This document shows, one piece after another, positions 12,659-32,119 of a stretch of 32,926 bases of DNA (position 1 is the stretch's first letter; every line of letters begins with the position of its first letter). Position numbers and translations under genes: made by a program. This DNA comes from Candidatus Omnitrophota bacterium. Lineage in GTDB: Bacteria > Omnitrophota > Gorgyraeia > Zapsychrales > Zapsychraceae. The notes under the pieces are model-generated. The model saw only the letters and a list, made by a program, of their open reading frames with translations, did no database searches and was not told where the DNA came from. The DNA lies in the NCBI GenBank assembly GCA_016214285.1, contig JACROV010000017.1, positions 1-32,926 of the forward strand. The letters run 5' to 3'.

Positions 12659-13547
12659 AGTTACCGGACATCCGGTGACCCGGATATCCGGATATCCGGG
12701 TCTTCTAGTCCCGGGTTCCCGGATAGCCGGATTCCCAAAATTCTTAGTCTGTAGTCTCTGGTCTGTAGTCTTTGGTCTGTTCCTGCAAGGCTGCGCCACG
12801 ATGTACAACCCCGCCATGGGCCGCGAAGAATTCATCTTGATCTCCACGCCCTCCGAAGTGGAAATGGGCAAAAGTATCCACGAGAGCATTACCCGGGAAT
12901 ATAAGCTTTCCAGGAATCCGGCGCAGGTCGACAGGGTCCGCCGTATCGGTGAACGTGTCGCCAAAGTTTCCGACCGGCAGGATTATGAGTATCATTTCTA
13001 TCTTATCGAAGAAGACGAGATGAACGCCTTCACGACGCCGGGCGGCAATATTTACGTTTATACGGGTTTGCTGGAAAAGCTTAAGAACGACGACCAAGTA
13101 GCGTCGGTGTTGGCCCATGAGATCGGGCATTGCGCCGCGCGGCATACGGTCAAGAAATTTCAGGCAGCGCTGGGATATGATCTGATCAGCAGAATTGTCC
13201 TCAGCCGTATCGGTGACGGGACCGCCCGGCAGATCACGGAGTTGAGCTCCAACGCGGCCATGAGCATCATTTTTTCCGCCTACAGCCGCAAGGATGAATA
13301 TGAAGCGGACCGGCTGGGGGTCAAGTATATGCATCTGGCCTGTTTCGATCCCGGCGCCAGTATCGAAACGTTCAAGATCCTGGAGGCCGATTCCAAAGGC
13401 CCCGACGTTCCGCTTATTTTGCGCAGTCATCCCTATATCCATGACCGTATCCGCATGGCGGAAGAAGAGATCAAAGCTCTGGGGAGCAAATATGGGCCTG
13501 CCTGCCGACGTAACTTATCGTTTGCCCAAATTCCTATTGTCCTGTAA
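12648..13547 (+). CDS. M48 family metallopeptidase lipoprotein (BepA/LoiP-like)
   Basis: This zinc peptidase of the periplasm or outer membrane has HEIGH at 157-161 and the third ligand in DEYEADRLG (Glu219). The N-terminus runs from TTG 12648. About 30 residues (such as VTRISGYPGLLVPG) come from CCGGATATCC-type repeats, then the hydrophobic core FLVCSLWSVVFGLFLQGC comes from AGTCTGTAGTC-type repeats and ends at the lipobox (Cys49). The N-terminal start is therefore uncertain, but the lipobox is convincing. BepA-like enzymes degrade stalled outer-membrane proteins such as LptD; BamD-like and LptE-like genes lie 2.6 kb downstream. A second M48 lipoprotein gene is at 24905. Confidence 0.87.
   Translation: MKGRVTGHPVTRISGYPGLLVPGSRIAGFPKFLVCSLWSVVFGLFLQGCATMYNPAMGREEFILISTPSEVEMGKSIHESITREYKLSRNPAQVDRVRRIGERVAKVSDRQDYEYHFYLIEEDEMNAFTTPGGNIYVYTGLLEKLKNDDQVASVLAHEIGHCAARHTVKKFQAALGYDLISRIVLSRIGDGTARQITELSSNAAMSIIFSAYSRKDEYEADRLGVKYMHLACFDPGASIETFKILEADSKGPDVPLILRSHPYIHDRIRMAEEEIKALGSKYGPACRRNLSFAQIPIVL
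12657..12782 (+). repeat. CCGGATATCC-word repeat followed by AGTCTGTAGTC-word arm (families 3 and 2)
   Basis: The first part iterates near-palindromic words such as CCGGATATCCGG and CCCGGATAGCCGG. The second is a single arm, TTAGTCTGTAGTCTCTGGTC, then TGTAGTCTTTGGTCTG. Both lie inside the M48 reading frame and encode its N-terminal region and signal core. Family 3 recurs at 22320-22425; family 2 at 3970 and 21905. Confidence 0.7.
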
Positions 13548-13606: not shown

Positions 13607-14035
13607 ATGCGCGTCATTTTTGCCATCCACGGGATCCGGAGCGCGAAGAAAGATAATTGGGTCTATAAATTTGCCGATTTCGTCGGCAAAGACCCGAGGT
13701 TTAAAGATGATCTCTCCGTTCCGTATCCATACGGGTTTCTTCTCGCTCTCGATTCTGTTAATCCCAAGACAAAATTTGATCATGTCAAAATGGTCATGAG
13801 GGAATTACGCGCGCTCACCGGCAAATATCCCGATGCCGGATTGAATATCGCCGCTCATAGTTACGGCACGGAATTAAGTTACCAGGCCATCAAGCGAAGC
13901 GGGGAGGACGGCAAGCCGCCGATCAAAGTCAACAAACTGATCCTCATCGCGAGTATCGTCTCCGCCCATCTCGAATATATTCTAGCCTTAATAAATTCTT
14001 CAATTCTTAATTATTTAATAGGGTTATGCCCTTGA
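13607..14035 (+). pseudogene. Truncated alpha/beta hydrolase
   Basis: The first 120 residues look like an alpha/beta hydrolase. There is an opening FAIHGIRS (oxyanion region) and a nucleophile elbow AAHSYGTE (about residues 84-91, G/A-x-S-x-G type), followed by NKLILIASIVS. At about 13975 homology and base composition change abruptly. The last 22 residues (ALINSSILNYLIGLCP) come from AT-rich DNA and the left arm of an inverted repeat. The C-terminal third, including the catalytic His, is missing. The likely reason is insertion or recombination with the mobile DNA that follows. It probably encodes no active enzyme, although the start and ribosome site are intact. Confidence 0.7.
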
Positions 14036-14110
14036 CTACCACTTCCAGCATACGATGGGCACGAAATCCTGTTGCACTGTTCATCAAAGGCATAACCCTA
14101 TTATTTAATT
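14009..14110. mobile_element. MITE-like inverted-repeat element (102 bp)
   Basis: Two 25-nt arms face each other: TAATAGGGTTATGCC on the left and GGCATAACCCTATTA on the right. They match at 22 of 25 positions, with a 52-nt interior that has a weaker internal hairpin (GATGGGCA / TGTTCATC). It has no coding capacity. It sits at the junction where the hydrolase ends and the restriction-modification remnant begins. Just beyond the right arm is AGAAGGGGACAGATTTG, which resembles a sequence I remember around REP-type elements with Y1 transposases. No transposase is nearby, so any movement would be in trans. Confidence 0.55.
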
Positions 14111-16139: not shown

Positions 16140-17110
16140 TTGCCAATATGCGTCGAGTTATAATATTAATATTATTCTTTTTGTTGAGCGGCACGACCTT
16201 GGTGCCTTCCCGCGGGTTTGCTTTCTGGGTCTGGACGCCGGAAACCAATAAATGGGTGAACCCCAAATATTCGGTCAAAGATACTCCTTCCGAACAGCTC
16301 GAATACGCCCTTGCCTTTTACAAATCCCAGGAATATAAAGAAGCTATCCAGGAATTGCGCAAGCTGATCGATCATTATCCCCGGGCCCGGGAAGCCGCCG
16401 ACGCCCAATATTACATCGGTGCCTGTTGGGAACAGATGGACAATCCCCAGGAAGCGTTCAAAAGTTACCAGGAGGTGGTCGACAAATATCCCTTTAGCGA
16501 GCGTTCGGCCGAGATCGTCCAGAAGCAGTACGATATCGCCGTGAAGTTGCTTGAAGGCCGGGATAAACGCGGGGTTTTGGCTAAGACGTTCTCCCTCACG
16601 GATTACACGGCCATCGATATATTCAAAGCGGTCATCAAGAACGCCCCTTACGGCAATCTGGCGGCGCCATCACGCTACAAGATCGGATTATATTACCTGG
16701 AAAATGGTTTGTATCAGGAAGCGAGGGATGAATTTGAGAAGGTGATGAACGATTATCCCGAGAGCGAGTGGGCCAAGGCCGCTAAATATCAGATCGCCGT
16801 TTCGGACAGCAAGCGTTCCACCGACGCTCAATACGACCAGAAGATCACGCAGGCCGCGGTCAAAGAATTCAAGGAATTCGCCGAACACTATCCCGACGCG
16901 GAACTTTCCCAGCAGGCCAAAGAGCAGATCCAGGGGTTGCGCGACAAGGAAGCGGAAAGCAATTTCCATATCGCCCAGTTTTACGAGAAGAACAAAAAAT
17001 ATGAATCGGCCAAGATCTATTATCAGAGGATCGTGGATGAGTTCCAGAATTCCCGCTGGACAGCCCAGGCGCTTAACAAGATCCGCGAATTGAGCCAGAA
17101 GGTGCAATGA
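16130..17110 (+). CDS. BamD-like TPR outer-membrane assembly protein
   Basis: This is a periplasmic protein of 326 aa (320 if it starts at ATG 16148, MRRVIILILFFLLSG). The signal peptide appears to end at SRGFA. Tetratricopeptide-type repeats follow through the whole chain, as in BamD/YbgF: LEYALAFYKSQEYKEAIQEL, IDHYPRAREAADAQYYIGAC, YLENGLYQEARDEFEKVM, NDYPESEWAKAAKYQIA. BamD is usually a lipoprotein, but there is no lipobox cysteine here. It may therefore be a soluble or differently anchored variant, or a CpoB-like protein. It is followed at once by an LptE-like lipoprotein (ATGA overlap), which supports an outer-membrane assembly role. A promoter candidate overlaps the start. Confidence 0.8.
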   Translation: MLKFANMRRVIILILFFLLSGTTLVPSRGFAFWVWTPETNKWVNPKYSVKDTPSEQLEYALAFYKSQEYKEAIQELRKLIDHYPRAREAADAQYYIGACWEQMDNPQEAFKSYQEVVDKYPFSERSAEIVQKQYDIAVKLLEGRDKRGVLAKTFSLTDYTAIDIFKAVIKNAPYGNLAAPSRYKIGLYYLENGLYQEARDEFEKVMNDYPESEWAKAAKYQIAVSDSKRSTDAQYDQKITQAAVKEFKEFAEHYPDAELSQQAKEQIQGLRDKEAESNFHIAQFYEKNKKYESAKIYYQRIVDEFQNSRWTAQALNKIRELSQKVQ

Positions 17111-17694
17111 ACAGAGACTATAGACCATCGACTATAGACTATCGACCGGCGTCAGTTATGTTCTCCCGATTTTTCAGGTCTATGGTCTATGGTCTATGGT
17201 CTATGGTCTTGATCGCCGGTTGCGGCTACACCACGAAGTCAACACTTCCTTCCAGCATCAAGACGATCCATGTCGAAACCTTCAAGAACAACATCGATTT
17301 TGCCGCTGAAGGGAGGCGCAATCTCTATTTGCCCCTGCTGGAGATTAAGGTCCGGAACGCGGTTATCAACCGATTTTTATTCGATGGGAATTTGAAGATC
17401 TCCGAGGCCGACAAGGCAGACCTTGTTTTGAAGGGACAGCTCCTGAGTTATGACCGGTCGGCGCTAAGGTATACGGATAATGGCGATGTCCAGGAGTACC
17501 GTGTCCACATTACGGTTTCTTTGGAGATGCACAACGCCCAAAGCGAAGAGGCTGTCTGGACGGAAACAGGGTTTGGGGGGGAAGCGACGTATTTTGTGAC
17601 TGGCGCGTCGGCCAGATCCGAGGAAGCCGCGGTTGAGGACGCCATTACGGACCTTGCCCGCCGGATCGTAGAACGCACGGTGGAGGATTGGTAA
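17107..17694 (+). CDS. LptE-like lipopolysaccharide assembly lipoprotein
   Basis: This 195-aa lipoprotein has lipobox IAGC (Cys39 from the ATGA-coupled start 17107; Cys22 from ATG 17158). The mature N-terminus GYTTKSTLPSSIKTIHVETF and the helix-strand pattern fit LptE, which helps LptD place LPS in the outer membrane. Later strands LVLKGQLLSYDRSALRY and YRVHITVSLEM agree. The start at 17107 overlaps the bamD-like stop. The signal region is encoded by an inverted repeat: the left arm gives NRDYRPSTIDYRP and the right arm gives RSMVYGLWSMVL. LptE homologues are weakly conserved, so the name rests on context as well as sequence. Confidence 0.78.
   Translation: MNRDYRPSTIDYRPASVMFSRFFRSMVYGLWSMVLIAGCGYTTKSTLPSSIKTIHVETFKNNIDFAAEGRRNLYLPLLEIKVRNAVINRFLFDGNLKISEADKADLVLKGQLLSYDRSALRYTDNGDVQEYRVHITVSLEMHNAQSEEAVWTETGFGGEATYFVTGASARSEEAAVEDAITDLARRIVERTVEDW
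17111..17212. repeat. Inverted repeat inside the lptE signal region, word GTCTATGG
   Basis: The left arm ACTATAGACCATCGACTATA and the right arm GGTCTATGGTCTATGGTCTA are complementary in words (CTATAGACC / GGTCTATGG). Both arms are read by the LptE-like frame and encode its charged N-terminus and its hydrophobic core. It is related to family 2. Confidence 0.7.
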
Positions 17695-18527: not shown

Positions 18528-18710
18528 GATTTTAAATACGAAGCACGAAATCCGAAACAAATTCAAATGGCCAAAACAGCAAAACCCAAACAAAACATTT
18601 TGAATTTAGGATCTTGCCGTTAGGCTCCCTTTGGCCAAAGGCTCCCTGCGGGGAGGAGGAATTTTTAATTTTTTTCGAGTTTCGTGCTTCGAATTTCGAG
18701 TTTGATCGTC
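18528..18710. repeat. Inverted repeat (family 5) with a nested GC-rich element
   Basis: The outer arms are AAATACGAAGCACGAAATCC and GAGTTTCGTGCTTCGAATTT. A copy of family P sits in the middle (18625-18662). It fills the gap between the convergent genes holA and rpsT and could act as a two-way transcription stop. There is no gene here. Confidence 0.75.
18625..18662 (-). repeat. GC-rich palindromic element (family P), copy 2, nested in an inverted repeat
   Basis: On the plus strand it reads AGGCTCCCTTTGGCCAAAGG then CTCCCTGCGGGGAGGAGGA. The second half is identical over about 20 bases to both copies inside aceE. The centre CTTTGGCCAAAG is a 12-bp palindrome. It splits the loop of the surrounding family 5 repeat, so it entered after that repeat formed, or uses it as a safe target. 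Confidence 0.7.
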
Positions 18711-24329: not shown

Positions 24330-24908
24330 ATGAAACAACTCATTCTCGCTTCGCAGTCTCCGCAGCGCAGAAAACTGCTCAAGTTCTTGGGTCTGCGATT
24401 TGCTGTCAAGCCCAGCCGCGTCCAGGAGATCAGCAAGATCAAAACGACGTGTTCGGCGTTGGTGCAGGAAAACGCCCTGCGCAAAGCCCTCGACGTCGCG
24501 TCCCGTCTCAAAAGCGGGGTGGTAATCGGGGCGGACACGCTTGTGTACGTCGGGAACAAGCGTATCATCGGTAAACCGCGCGATCTTAAAGATGCCCGGC
24601 GGACCCTCAAAATCCTTTTTTCCCGCCCGCAATGGGTCTACACGGGGGTGGCGGTCATCGACGCGGCCACCGGCAAAACGCTGGTCGATTACGAGAAAAC
24701 CAAGATTTTTATGGTCCCGTTGACTGACGCGGAGATCACCCACTATCACCGCCGGATCAACCCATTTGACAAAGCCGGCGGTTTTCAGATCGAAGGATGG
24801 GGAAGCATCTTTATCCATCGCATCGAAGGATGTTATTCGAACGTGATCGGCCTTCCCATGGCGAAACTTGCCGGAATGCTGAAAAAAGTCGGCATCTCAA
24901 TATTATGA
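24330..24908 (+). CDS. maf: Maf family nucleotide pyrophosphatase
   Basis: This 192-aa house-cleaning enzyme hydrolyses non-standard or methylated nucleoside triphosphates. Family motifs are LILASQSPQRRKLL at the start, VVIGADTLVYVGNKRIIGKP (about residues 64-83), and the C-terminal block DKAGGFQIEGWGS then GCYSNVIGLPM. In usual Maf the first motif reads SxSPRR, close to SQSPQRR here. The stop overlaps the start of the M48 lipoprotein gene (ATGA). The upstream gap is a repeat, with no clear ribosome site. Identity is secure; the exact substrate (dTTP/UTP or m7GTP type) is not clear from the sequence. Confidence 0.92.
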   Translation: MKQLILASQSPQRRKLLKFLGLRFAVKPSRVQEISKIKTTCSALVQENALRKALDVASRLKSGVVIGADTLVYVGNKRIIGKPRDLKDARRTLKILFSRPQWVYTGVAVIDAATGKTLVDYEKTKIFMVPLTDAEITHYHRRINPFDKAGGFQIEGWGSIFIHRIEGCYSNVIGLPMAKLAGMLKKVGISIL

Positions 24909-25038
24909 GAGAAGAGAAGATGGAAGATAGAAGATGGAAAAAGATTGAGAAAAAACAGCCGCCTCTTTCTTCTTTTTTAGCCGCGCTCCGGTTTCGTCTT
25001 TCTTTTTTCCATTTTCTATTTTCTATCTTCTGCCTCAT
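24905..25038. repeat. Inverted repeat, word GAAGATAGAAGATGG, fully inside coding sequence (family 6)
   Basis: The left arm GAAGATGGAAGATAGAAGAT and the right arm TTTTCCATTTTCTATTTTC then TATCTTC are complementary. Both arms are read in one frame as the N-terminus of the M48 lipoprotein. The arms are separated by about 50 nt. Confidence 0.75.
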
Positions 25039-25768
25039 GATTTTAAGTGGTTGCAGCACCGAGTACAATCTCGCCACGCAACAGCAGGAAACGCTGATTT
25101 ACGGGACGGACAAAGAGGTGAGTATCGGCGAGGCCGTGTCGGCGAAAATGGAACAGCAGTATGATGTGGTGACCGACGTGGACGTCAATGAACGCGCGCG
25201 GCGCATCCTGGAGCGCGTCACGGCGGTCTGCGACCGCAAGGACATCGTGTATTTCGTCAAGGTGCTCGATAAGGATGTGATGAATGCCGTCAGTTTGCCG
25301 GGCGGCTACGTTTATATTTTTAAAGGATTGATGGACAAACTCGAAACGGATGATCAGATCGCCGGAGTTATCGCCCATGAAGTCGGTCACATCACGGCCA
25401 GGCACGCCGTCAAAAGGATCCAGAACGCCTATGGGGCCATGATCCTGCAGGGACTGGCGACACGCTCCAGCGCCAAGGTGGCCCAGGGGGTTAACTTCGC
25501 GTTGATCTCTCTTTTTTCGGAATATTCCCAGCAGGATGAATTCGAGGCCGACCGCCTGGGCGTCAAGTATATGAAGAAGGCTGGATATGATCCCAACGCG
25601 ATGGTCCAGGTGCTTGTCAAGTTAAGGGAAGAGCAGGAAAAAAGCCCGGCGCAGGAATACAGCTACTGGCGCACGCACCCGTTCATCCCCCAAAGGATCT
25701 CCGTCGTCAACCAGGCCATTACGGGCAAAATGGATTTTAAGGATTACCTGAACTTGATGGGGGAATGA
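24905..25768 (+). CDS. M48 family metallopeptidase lipoprotein (second copy)
   Basis: This is a 287-aa zinc metallopeptidase anchored by a lipobox, LSGC (Cys50). The zinc site is HEVGH (158-162) with the third ligand in DEFEADRLG (Glu214). The tail YWRTHPFIPQRI matches BepA/LoiP-type proteins that watch over outer-membrane biogenesis. I chose ATG 24905, coupled to maf by an ATGA overlap; the tracked start at 24797 reads through maf. The N-terminal region is made from an inverted repeat: the left arm gives MREEKMEDRRWKK and the right arm gives RLSFFHFLFSIFCLM, right before the lipobox. It is clearly related to the M48 gene at 12648. Confidence 0.88.
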   Translation: MREEKMEDRRWKKIEKKQPPLSSFLAALRFRLSFFHFLFSIFCLMILSGCSTEYNLATQQQETLIYGTDKEVSIGEAVSAKMEQQYDVVTDVDVNERARRILERVTAVCDRKDIVYFVKVLDKDVMNAVSLPGGYVYIFKGLMDKLETDDQIAGVIAHEVGHITARHAVKRIQNAYGAMILQGLATRSSAKVAQGVNFALISLFSEYSQQDEFEADRLGVKYMKKAGYDPNAMVQVLVKLREEQEKSPAQEYSYWRTHPFIPQRISVVNQAITGKMDFKDYLNLMGE

Positions 25769-26313
25769 TATTAATGAACAAATTACAAATTACAAATTAC
25801 AAGCAATGGACAATATCCAAATTACAAAATATCAATAAAATTTTATCATTTGGTCATTGTTGTTTTTGGTATTGTTTATTGTTTGTGATTTGTGGTTTGT
25901 TGTTTGGAATTTCTAGCAGGAGTTTTTCTCAAAATACCAGCCAGGTCTGCTTTAAAGAAAAATGCATCAACGTTGAAGTGGTCCAGAAAGAAGAAGAGCT
26001 TCACCGCGGGCTGCAGTTTCGAAAATCCCTCGATCCCGATAGCGGGATGTTATTTGTTTTCAAAAAAAGCTGGCCGTACGCGTTCTGGATGAAAGACACG
26101 CTGATCCCTCTGGATATGATCTGGATGGACGACACGCGAAGAATCGTTCATATCGAACATAACGTCCCACCCTGCACGGCGGATCCCTGCCCAAGCTACC
26201 CGCCCCGACATGAGGCGTTGTATGTCCTGGAGATCAACGCGGGATACGCTGAAGAACTCGGATTAAGACTGAGAGACACGGCGGAATTTAGATTAAAAGG
26301 GGCAGAGAAATAA
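25765..26313 (+). CDS. DUF192 family exported protein
   Basis: This 182-aa protein belongs to DUF192, a small beta-barrel domain of unknown function usually exported. The core is visible as VEVVQKEEELHRGLQFRKSL, GMLFVFKKSWPYAFWMKDTL, PLDMIWMDDTRRIVHIEHNV, and ALYVLEINAGYAEELGL. It starts at ATG 25765 (ATGA overlap) or ATG 25774. The first 60 residues come from a family 4 inverted repeat: left arm MNKLQITNYKQWTISKLQNI, right arm SFGHCCFWYCLLFVICGLLF. This gives a long signal peptide with a cleavage site near SRSFS. There is no clear lipobox. The 3' end enters a family 6 repeat, convergent with lpd. Confidence 0.83.
   Translation: MILMNKLQITNYKQWTISKLQNINKILSFGHCCFWYCLLFVICGLLFGISSRSFSQNTSQVCFKEKCINVEVVQKEEELHRGLQFRKSLDPDSGMLFVFKKSWPYAFWMKDTLIPLDMIWMDDTRRIVHIEHNVPPCTADPCPSYPPRHEALYVLEINAGYAEELGLRLRDTAEFRLKGAEK
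25774..25912. repeat. Long inverted repeat (family 4) fully inside coding sequence
   Basis: The left arm has AACAAATTACAAATTACAAA and GCAATGGACAATATCCAAAT. The right arm has TTTGGTCATTGTTGTTTTTG, GGTATTGTTTATTGTTTGTG. It is the same family as the intergenic repeats at 8227, 23520 and 27834, but here both arms are coding, at the start of the DUF192 gene. Confidence 0.78.
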
Positions 26314-29353: not shown

Positions 29354-32119
29354 TTACGAAATCATCGGATTCAGCTTCTTGGGATTTATTTCCAGCTTTT
29401 TGGCCGCTTGCTTGAGCACATCGGCTTTGATCTTTTTTTCCTTCGCGAGGGTCACCAGCGTGCCGAAGACGATATGGCGCGCGTCGACCTCAAAAAAGTC
29501 CCTGAGGGCTTTGCGGCTGTCGCTGCGTCCGAACCCGTCGGTCCCCAGCGATAACATCGGGCCCGGGACCCATTGCGCGATGCCATCGGGCATGATCTTC
29601 ATGTAATCCGAGGCGAAGATGAACACGTCGCCCTGGCCATGAAGGCATTTGGTCACGTAGGGGATTTCAGGCTTTTGCGCCGGGTTGAGCATGTTCCGGC
29701 GTTCGACGTGCAGGGCCTCGCGGCGCAGTTCATTGTAGCTGGTCACGCTCCAGACATCCGCGGCCACCCCATAATCTTCTTCCAGGATCTGCTGGGCCTC
29801 AAGGACCTGGTGAATGATGGCTCCACTGCCGAACAGTTGCGCGCGCGCCGCCGCTTTCTTCTTCCCGGAGGATTTGAATTTATACATGCCCTTGAGGATG
29901 CCGTCCCGGACACCTTCAGCCGGCAGGCTCCTCCCCCTCGGCCAAAGGCTCCCTGCGGGGAGGGGACCTATGGCTGCGGCCAAAGGCTCCCTGCGGGGAG
30001 GAGGCATCGGCGGCATGGCGTAATTTTCGTTGCCGACGCTGATGTAATAAAGAATATTTTCCTGTTTTTTGTACATGCGGTCGATGCCGTCACGGATAAT
30101 GACGGCCAGTTCGAAAGCGAAGGCCGGGTCATACGTGACGATGTTCGGGACGGTGGATAAAAGCACGTGGCTGTGGCCGTCCTGGTGCTGGAGGCCTTCA
30201 CCGTTAAGCGTGGTGCGTCCCGCGGTCCCGCCGATCAAAAAGCCGCGGCAGCGCGAATCCGCCGCCGCCCAGACCAGATCGCCGACGCGTTGCGGGCCGA
30301 ACATCGAATAATAGATGTAGAAGGGGATGGTGTTGATCCCTTGCGTCGAATACGCCGTACCGGCGGCGATAAACGAAGAAATGGCGCCGGCTTCATTGAT
30401 GCCTTCCTCAAGGATCTGTCCGTCCTTGGCCTCCTTGTAATAGAGGAGACTGTCTTTGTCCACGGGTTCATAGAGCTGTCCGACGTGTGAATAGATTCCG
30501 CACTGGCGAAAGAGGGCCTCCATGCCGAAGGTGCGCGCCTCATCGGGGATAATGGGGACGATGAGCTTGCCGATCTCTTTATCCTTGAGAAGTTTGGTCA
30601 GGATCCGGACGTAGGCCATGGTGGTCGAGACCTCGCGGCCCGCAGTCCCTTTGTAAAATTCTTCGAATAATTCGTCGGAGGGCGCGGGCAGCGGCTGGCT
30701 GGTCTCATGACGCGCGGGCATGTAGCCGCCTAAAGCCTTGCGGCGTTCATGCAGATATTTCATGACTTCGGAATCCGGGCCGGGTTTGTAAAACGGCGTT
30801 TCGGCGACGTCTTTGTCGGAGATCGGGATGTTAAAGCGCGTGCGGAATTGTTTCAGTTCGTCCTCGTTGAGCTTTTTCTGCTGGTGGCTGATATTTTTTC
30901 CTTCGCCGCTTTCGCCGAGGCCGTAGCCTTTGATGGTCTTGGCGAGGATAACGGTCGGCTTGCCTTTGAAGTCGACGGCCGCCTTGTAAGCCGCGTAGAC
31001 TTTTACGGGGTCATGCCCGCCGCGGCGCAGGTTTTCCAGGTCCTCGTCGCTTAAATGCCGGACCATCTCCAGCAGGCGCGGATCAGTGCCGAAGAAATTT
31101 TCGCGGATGTAGGCGCCGGATTCGACGGAATATTTCTGGTATTGGCCGTCGATGACCTCGCCCATGCGTTTGGCCAGAATGCCTTCCGTATCTTTTTCCA
31201 GCAAGGGATCCCAGTCTTCGCCCCAGATGACCTTGATCACGTTCCATTGGGCGCCGCGGAAGATCGCTTCGAGTTCCTGGATGATCTTGCCGTTGCCGCG
31301 CACGGGGCCGTCGAGGCGCTGGAGGTTGCAGTTGATGACGAAGATAAGGTTGTCGAGATGTTCGCGCGAGGCCAGATGGATCGCGCCGAGCGATTCCGGT
31401 TCGTCGCACTCGCCATCGCCCATAAAGACCCATATCTTGGCGTCGTCTTTCGGTTTCAGGCCCCGGTCTTCAAGATAACGCATGAACCGGGCCTGGTAAA
31501 TACCGGTTAGAGGCGCGAGCCCCATGGAAACGGTGGGGAACTGCCAGAAATTCGGCATGAGCCACGGATGGGGATAGGAGGAGAGCCCGCCGCCTTCTTT
31601 TAATTCCCGTCGGAAATTTTCGAGTTTTTCTTCGCTTAAACGGCCTTCCAAAAATGCCCGCGCGTAGACGCCGGGAGAGGCGTGTCCCTGGAAATAAACG
31701 AAATCGCCGCAAAAATTGTCCGTGCGCGCGCGGAAGAAATGATTGAACCCGACCTCGAACAAGGTCGCGGCGGAAGCGTAGGTGGAAATATGCCCGCCGA
31801 TGCCGGCCTCAGCGTGGTTGCCGCGAACGACCATCGCCATCGCGTTCCAGCGGATGATGCTTTTGATCTGGCGCTCAAGGTCACGGTTACCCGGATAGGA
31901 CGGTTGTTTGCTTTTGGCGATGGTATTAATATAGGGTGTGTTAACGGTAAAGGGGAGTGTGACGCCGGCTTCCTGGGCGCGGATCTGTAGCTGCTGGAGG
32001 ATCTTTTGGGCTTGTTCCGGGGACCCGTGCTTGAGGACATAATCCAGGGAACTCATCCATTCTTTGATCTCTATGTCATCGACCTCGGCTGCCCGACGAC
32101 GAAGCTCATCCGCGCTCAT
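29354..32119 (-). CDS. aceE: Pyruvate dehydrogenase E1, homodimeric AceE type, with a 28-residue insertion
   Basis: This is a 921-aa thiamine-diphosphate enzyme that decarboxylates pyruvate and acetylates E2. The TPP-binding motif is MGDGECDEPESLGAI (233-247), and the AceE signature VINCNLQRLDGPVRGNGKI follows. The pyrimidine-domain and transketolase C-terminal regions are recognisable (GSGAIIHQVLEAQQIL). AAAGGAAA precedes ATG 32119. Relative to AceE proteins, residues 707-734 are extra: the usual join MPAMP/EG is split as MPPMP...EG by a stretch starting PPRREPLAAAIG. It is the first gene of the operon. Being a surface or linker loop, the insertion need not abolish activity, but this is untested. 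Confidence 0.95.
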   Translation of the reverse strand: MSADELRRRAAEVDDIEIKEWMSSLDYVLKHGSPEQAQKILQQLQIRAQEAGVTLPFTVNTPYINTIAKSKQPSYPGNRDLERQIKSIIRWNAMAMVVRGNHAEAGIGGHISTYASAATLFEVGFNHFFRARTDNFCGDFVYFQGHASPGVYARAFLEGRLSEEKLENFRRELKEGGGLSSYPHPWLMPNFWQFPTVSMGLAPLTGIYQARFMRYLEDRGLKPKDDAKIWVFMGDGECDEPESLGAIHLASREHLDNLIFVINCNLQRLDGPVRGNGKIIQELEAIFRGAQWNVIKVIWGEDWDPLLEKDTEGILAKRMGEVIDGQYQKYSVESGAYIRENFFGTDPRLLEMVRHLSDEDLENLRRGGHDPVKVYAAYKAAVDFKGKPTVILAKTIKGYGLGESGEGKNISHQQKKLNEDELKQFRTRFNIPISDKDVAETPFYKPGPDSEVMKYLHERRKALGGYMPARHETSQPLPAPSDELFEEFYKGTAGREVSTTMAYVRILTKLLKDKEIGKLIVPIIPDEARTFGMEALFRQCGIYSHVGQLYEPVDKDSLLYYKEAKDGQILEEGINEAGAISSFIAAGTAYSTQGINTIPFYIYYSMFGPQRVGDLVWAAADSRCRGFLIGGTAGRTTLNGEGLQHQDGHSHVLLSTVPNIVTYDPAFAFELAVIIRDGIDRMYKKQENILYYISVGNENYAMPPMPPPRREPLAAAIGPLPAGSLWPRGRSLPAEGVRDGILKGMYKFKSSGKKKAAARAQLFGSGAIIHQVLEAQQILEEDYGVAADVWSVTSYNELRREALHVERRNMLNPAQKPEIPYVTKCLHGQGDVFIFASDYMKIMPDGIAQWVPGPMLSLGTDGFGRSDSRKALRDFFEVDARHIVFGTLVTLAKEKKIKADVLKQAAKKLEINPKKLNPMIS
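29918..30001 (-). repeat. GC-rich palindromic element (family P), tandem pair inserted in frame in aceE
   Basis: Two 25-bp copies, identical to each other (29939-29963 and 29977-30001, 38 nt apart), contain GGCTCCCTGCGGGGAGG on the plus strand. The outer ends GGCTCCTCCCC and GGGGAGGAGGC are near-inverted. The insertion is 84 nt, exactly 28 codons, so the frame is kept. The two copies are read in different frames (PPRREPLA versus LPAGSLWP). Confidence 0.88.

Follow-up and report, generated by a model that had tools for sequence, protein, structure and literature searches.

Palindromic or short repeats that enter protein-coding genes have precedents in the Yersinia RU-2, Rickettsia RPE and Neisseria opa repeats. 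The passages of Delihas (2007, PMC2759123) describe the RU-2 (YPAL) palindromic element in YPO1552 as having a single main locus and a single conserved sequence, whereas the Omnitrophota hairpins reported here consist of degenerate 7-nt words, fall into several families, involve several exported genes and carry different words at one site in sister species. The Rickettsia palindromic elements (RPE; Ogata 2000, reviewed in PMC2229807) resemble these hairpins in lying both between genes and in frame inside protein genes. In the passages of that review, however, RPEs occur in many conserved kinds of protein, including enzymes such as guanylate kinase, and heptad structure goes unmentioned, whereas coding use in the Omnitrophota is at the N-termini of exported proteins. 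The TAACTGA heptamers of Beggiatoaceae are likewise intergenic tandem 7-nt words, often found 5' of genes, but they consist of one word repeated directly and very rarely in inverted pairs, have stops in the forward frame and have no use in signal peptides (MacGregor 2015, PMC4679880). The CTCTT pentamers of Neisseria opa also lie in a region encoding a leader peptide, but they vary in number to switch expression and have no inverted arms (PMC3960869). No description of heptad hairpins or of repeat-derived signals in Omnitrophota was found in the open literature searched, nor was a case that combines heptad hairpins of several word families with use in several exported genes and turnover at a single site.

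The hairpin between maf and the M48 gene

The window (the whole stretch of 32,926 nucleotides that was analysed) forms contig 1 of a MAG of 1.82 Mb, and the close named relatives of this MAG are mostly Candidatus Omnitrophota MAGs. On the + strand, the gene maf (24330-24908; PF02545), which encodes a cytosolic protein and served as a control, is followed by an M48 metalloprotease gene (24905-25768) whose ATG overlaps the maf stop codon as ATGA and whose start is shared by an 86% identical ortholog. The M48 protein scored 111.9 bits against Peptidase_M48 (PF01435, E 4e-32), above the Pfam cut-off of 20.3, and fell below the curated NCBIfam cut-offs for BepA (96/570 bits) and LoiP (72/365 bits). 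It is related to LoiP and BepA and is not an equivalog; among solved structures, the M48 family peptidase 3c37 is the nearest to it in sequence. It is a predicted lipoprotein with the lipobox LSGC (25043-25054, + strand), in which the Cys50 codon occupies 25052-25054 and the Cys and the following EYN are conserved in orthologs.

The junction is covered by a palindromic heptad hairpin (24896-25047, no strand assigned) with a gapped inverted-repeat score of 35, 104/152 matched positions and a lag-7 identity of 0.51 compared with 0.273 for the genome. Its ungapped left arm, GAAGATG GAAGATA GAAGATG and so on (24915-24942, + strand), encodes the charged n-region MREEKMEDRRWKK in the M48 frame; the loop (24943-25003, + strand) would be translated in that frame as an n-region linker; and the ungapped right arm, TTTTTTCCATTTTCTATTTTCTATCTTC and its neighbours (25004-25031, + strand), encodes the hydrophobic core (S)FFHFLFSIF. 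The earlier note had proposed that the M48 lipoprotein signal is built from both arms. Its charged left arm and its LSGC frame were as described, but the right arm proper encodes only (S)FFHFLFSIF, and the RL and CLM that had been assigned to it are flanking codons. As RNA, positions 24909-25038 have a predicted fold of -50.1 kcal/mol, whereas shuffles average -29.1 (z -5.67, 0/200 shuffles). A chance palindrome was rejected from these shuffles and from a dinucleotide control with no inverted repeat at a score of 35. An assembly artefact was also rejected, as separate MAGs (UBA10147, NC_groundwater_1780 and Bin_37_8) have the same class of element at the same site.

Direct reading of the window found no ATG, GTG or TTG in the M48 frame between 24922 and 25037. 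The ATG at 25037 lies only five codons 5' of the lipobox Cys and would leave M-I-L-S-G-C with neither an n-region nor an h-region, and a start downstream of the repeat was rejected. Because no workable in-frame start lies downstream, the usable starts are 24905 and 24920, which coincide with the left arm or lie at it, and export of the protein would therefore require translation of both arms. Immediately before the lipobox the sequence reads SIFCLM-IL-S-G-C, with a hydrophobic core and, by direct reading, no charged residue in the preceding six positions. The PROSITE lipoprotein rule places the Cys near residue 15-35. The Cys is residue 50 from the ATG at 24905 and residue 45 from that at 24920, both outside this range, and residue 31 in one ortholog (G021). 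The start at 24905 thus gives a long signal, which counts against the signal reading. On balance, translation through the repeat and lipidation at Cys50 are predicted, in agreement with the earlier note.

Heptad hairpins across the genome

The survey covered about 1.56 of the 1.82 Mb, about 33 kb of which reads N, and identified 184 inverted repeats with a score of at least 35, compared with 0 in the dinucleotide control. Pooled hairpins had autocorrelations of 0.397, 0.364 and 0.315 at lags 7, 14 and 21 (0.273 for the genome at lag 7), and 120 hairpins passed the heptad filter. Among the 112 with two flanking genes, 108 sit between co-directional genes, with medians of 2 nt from the stop upstream of them and 15 nt from the body that follows, and about 80% of array bases fall outside compositional coding sequence.

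The left arm is A-rich in 77 of the 120 hairpins, and the polarity is opposite in 30. In the majority polarity the left arm is polar and positive (+2.3) and the right arm hydrophobic (mean KD +1.24). Shuffled right arms are as hydrophobic as real ones, so that the arms are pre-adapted as signals by composition and not by evolved coding; the idea that they had evolved toward hydrophobicity was rejected on the same result. As 7 = 1 mod 3, a perfect heptamer array reads as one 7-residue cycle in all frames. In the real, imperfect arms the amino-acid content common to frames is 0.578, versus 0.458 in shuffles. Stops occur in about half or more of the hairpin frames, and the tolerated elements are therefore a filtered subset.

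A rival reading is that the hairpin is primarily an RNA element of the maf/M48 operon, acting as a stabiliser or as a processing or attenuation site, with its coding use a by-product. We regard this as a serious contender with somewhat less than an even chance of being correct. Placement exactly at co-directional junctions and the RNA fold (z -5.7) argue for it, as do mismatches on the transcript strand, where G.U exceeds A.C both genome-wide (321 vs 263, p 0.018) and in coding elements (89 vs 58, p 0.013), although this excess is weak and the samples are partly related. Against it, many sister species have no hairpin at the same junction. The RNA-element reading is compatible with the explanation preferred below, as it concerns why the hairpin is kept.

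The 120 hairpins cluster into groups of 66, 22, 8, 8, 6 and 2 plus eight singletons, and the GAAGATR element of the M48 junction is one of the singletons. ACAAATT-type words, as in the DUF192 gene, belong to the largest dispersed cluster, which confirms that the two genes use different word families. Dispersed families with common arms (the clusters of 66, 22, 8, 8 and 6), together with sister species that have different words at the same junction, would fit a classical mobile MITE inserted with target duplication. This origin is nevertheless unlikely: flanking direct repeats show no excess (3.55 vs 3.50 +- 0.09), although fuzzy element edges limit this comparison, the words appear degenerate and not copied, and the GAAGATR element has no family.

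Two other repeats were noticed. A second palindromic family lacks heptad structure; it has AATAGGGTTATGCC... ends, reads MPLTTTSSIRWARNPVALFIKGITL and overlaps the N-termini of predicted coding sequences at 14009-14110 of the window and at C4:15777-15884, C70:2368-2530 and C73:5213-5316 of the genome (G000). A GC-rich repeat, GGCCAAAGGCTCCCTGCGGGGAGGAGG (29940-30007), occurs twice inside a large ORF (29354-32119), which by eye we take to be pyruvate dehydrogenase E1-like, with one intergenic copy at 18633-18662.

Exported genes, cytosolic controls and relatives

Three other exported genes in the window have word arrays in their signal regions, both in this genome and in relatives. An ACAAATT-word hairpin (25779-25906, no strand assigned; inverted-repeat score 49) gives the signal peptide of the DUF192 protein, which has no start of its own after the array and a compositional coding start only at 25933. 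A GACTATA-word hairpin (17109-17214, no strand assigned; score 30) gives the signal of the LptE lipoprotein, for which orthologs were compared (compositional coding start 17203), and a GTCTGTA word array (12744-12770, + strand) gives the h-region of a second M48 lipoprotein (compositional coding start 12765). With the first M48 gene, whose coding composition starts only at 25055, the composition-based start coincides with the array's end or falls close to it in all four.

Arrays overlapped the first ~21 codons in 27 of 95 orthologs of the four exported proteins (6/28, 8/30, 4/17 and 9/20 per gene) and in 0 of 55 orthologs of the only two cytosolic control genes, maf (0/28) and pyrE (0/27). Just upstream of the start, arrays were present in 13 of the 55 controls (9 maf, 4 pyrE). 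The Fisher p of 1e-6 for exported genes versus maf and pyrE is optimistic, since related genomes were treated as independent and the four exported genes were chosen from the window because G000 shows the repeat there; with G000 left out of the same lists, the counts are 23/91 and 0/53. Some orthologs use the right arm only, or start after the left arm.

Within the genome itself, an array lies close upstream of 149 genes, and the start follows the array in 141. The clear exceptions are M48, DUF192, a TPR/GH2-like protein whose N-terminus resembles a signal and a prepilin-like protein, all of exported or membrane types; a further four appear to reflect edge effects of the array caller or short N-termini. 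Hairpins over the h-region were also counted automatically under a stricter rule, which misses cases using the right arm only and gave 4/27 lipoproteins versus 5/267 other N-terminal hydrophobic segments. The prepilin-like protein (G000:C44:14997-15380, L073) scored just below the Pfam cut-off for N_methyl, and its array PVPCTLYPEKGIILVEVLLAVVVL encodes the n-region of the leader.

The N-termini of the M48 lipoprotein were compared in sister genomes, as the earlier note had suggested. The ATGA overlap and the frame are kept while the length of the junction varies: among ATGA-start orthologs, including those with word arrays (G000, G005, G003, G021, G004 and G029), the maf stop and the lipobox Cys are 53 to 188 nt apart, always by a number that equals 2 mod 3 and with the frame open. 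GAAGATR words occupy the junction in G000, G005 and G021, CGAAATN words in G003, G004 (as a left-arm remnant) and G029, TTCGCGN in G026 and CCAATNA in G038; G030, G015, G031 and G012 have a short, plain signal from the same ATGA and no hairpin. In a Maf+M48+PyrE tree, in which the split separating G000 and G005 has only 68% support, G003 (CGAAATN) adjoins G000 and G005, followed by G004 (CGAAATN), with G021 (GAAGATR) outside; this order requires at least two word changes at the maf-M48 junction. The finding of different words at one junction goes beyond the independent origin that the earlier note had claimed from the M48 and DUF192 genes.

In about 20 relatives, including L009, L018 and L025 (G020, G017 and G007), maf and M48 form one uninterrupted frame, in which the lipobox follows immediately on the last residues of Maf (MLKKVGVSIL). 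This arrangement is either a fusion or an internal start for which the Maf C-terminus serves as the signal n-region. The MAG behind L243 (SBBO01000045.1) carries the locus that matches G004, a member of the window's genus; its public label, Planctomycetales bacterium, looks doubtful.

The variable junction length would also fit a phase-variable contingency locus, at which gain or loss of a 7-nt word shifts the frame and switches the lipoprotein, as pentamers do in Neisseria opa. The unit is no multiple of three, the repeats lie within the leader region, and the coding CTCTT repeats of opa are a known parallel (PMC3960869). This explanation is nonetheless improbable, given that the frame is open in every ATGA-start ortholog, that degenerate words should slow slippage, that most arrays are non-coding, and that the targets include housekeeping proteins such as LptE and M48 proteases. 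Least credible of all is a true M48 start elsewhere with the repeat as an untranslated insertion, which would suit the late onset of coding composition at 25055 but is opposed by the lack of an in-frame start between the left arm and the ATG at 25037 and by the conserved frame and ATGA overlap.

Probable origin and meaning of the predicted repeat-built signals

We consider it very probable that hairpins at gene junctions encroach on the following gene, in which signal peptides alone can accommodate them. The maf-M48 junction is occupied by an imperfect hairpin of 7-nt words, of a kind dispersed in this Omnitrophota genome. At other sites, hairpins of this kind fill the co-directional gap, from right after the upstream stop to before the next start; here the two genes overlap (ATGA), so the hairpin lies inside the first M48 codons and would be translated. 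The left arm, rich in purines, would then supply an n-region that is polar and carries net positive charge, while the T-rich right arm would supply the hydrophobic core that ends at the lipobox. Signal peptides would tolerate the hairpin because nothing is required of them beyond charge, hydrophobicity and a cleavage box, and heptad arrays would add to this tolerance because a 7-nt unit yields a similar peptide in each frame. Purifying selection would be the filter, and the hairpin may have a role at the mRNA level or none.

More tentatively, and with odds against it, new signal peptides in Omnitrophota may arise recurrently from heptad hairpins, which are frame-tolerant and which exported genes would adopt repeatedly, with the words replaced over time. 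The peptide of an array is nearly equal in three frames and the arm order of a palindrome is the same on both strands, so any A-left hairpin inserted at an operon junction could provide a positively charged n-region and, after it, a hydrophobic core.

One caution is that start codons assigned automatically can be wrong in genomes of this kind. The hairpins would represent a multi-locus case of non-coding repeat DNA becoming a working part of proteins, in which the signal peptides of housekeeping lipoproteins (LptE, M48 proteases) are built from the arms and, in sister species, remade from different words. Such natural replicates would make the origin of signal peptides testable.
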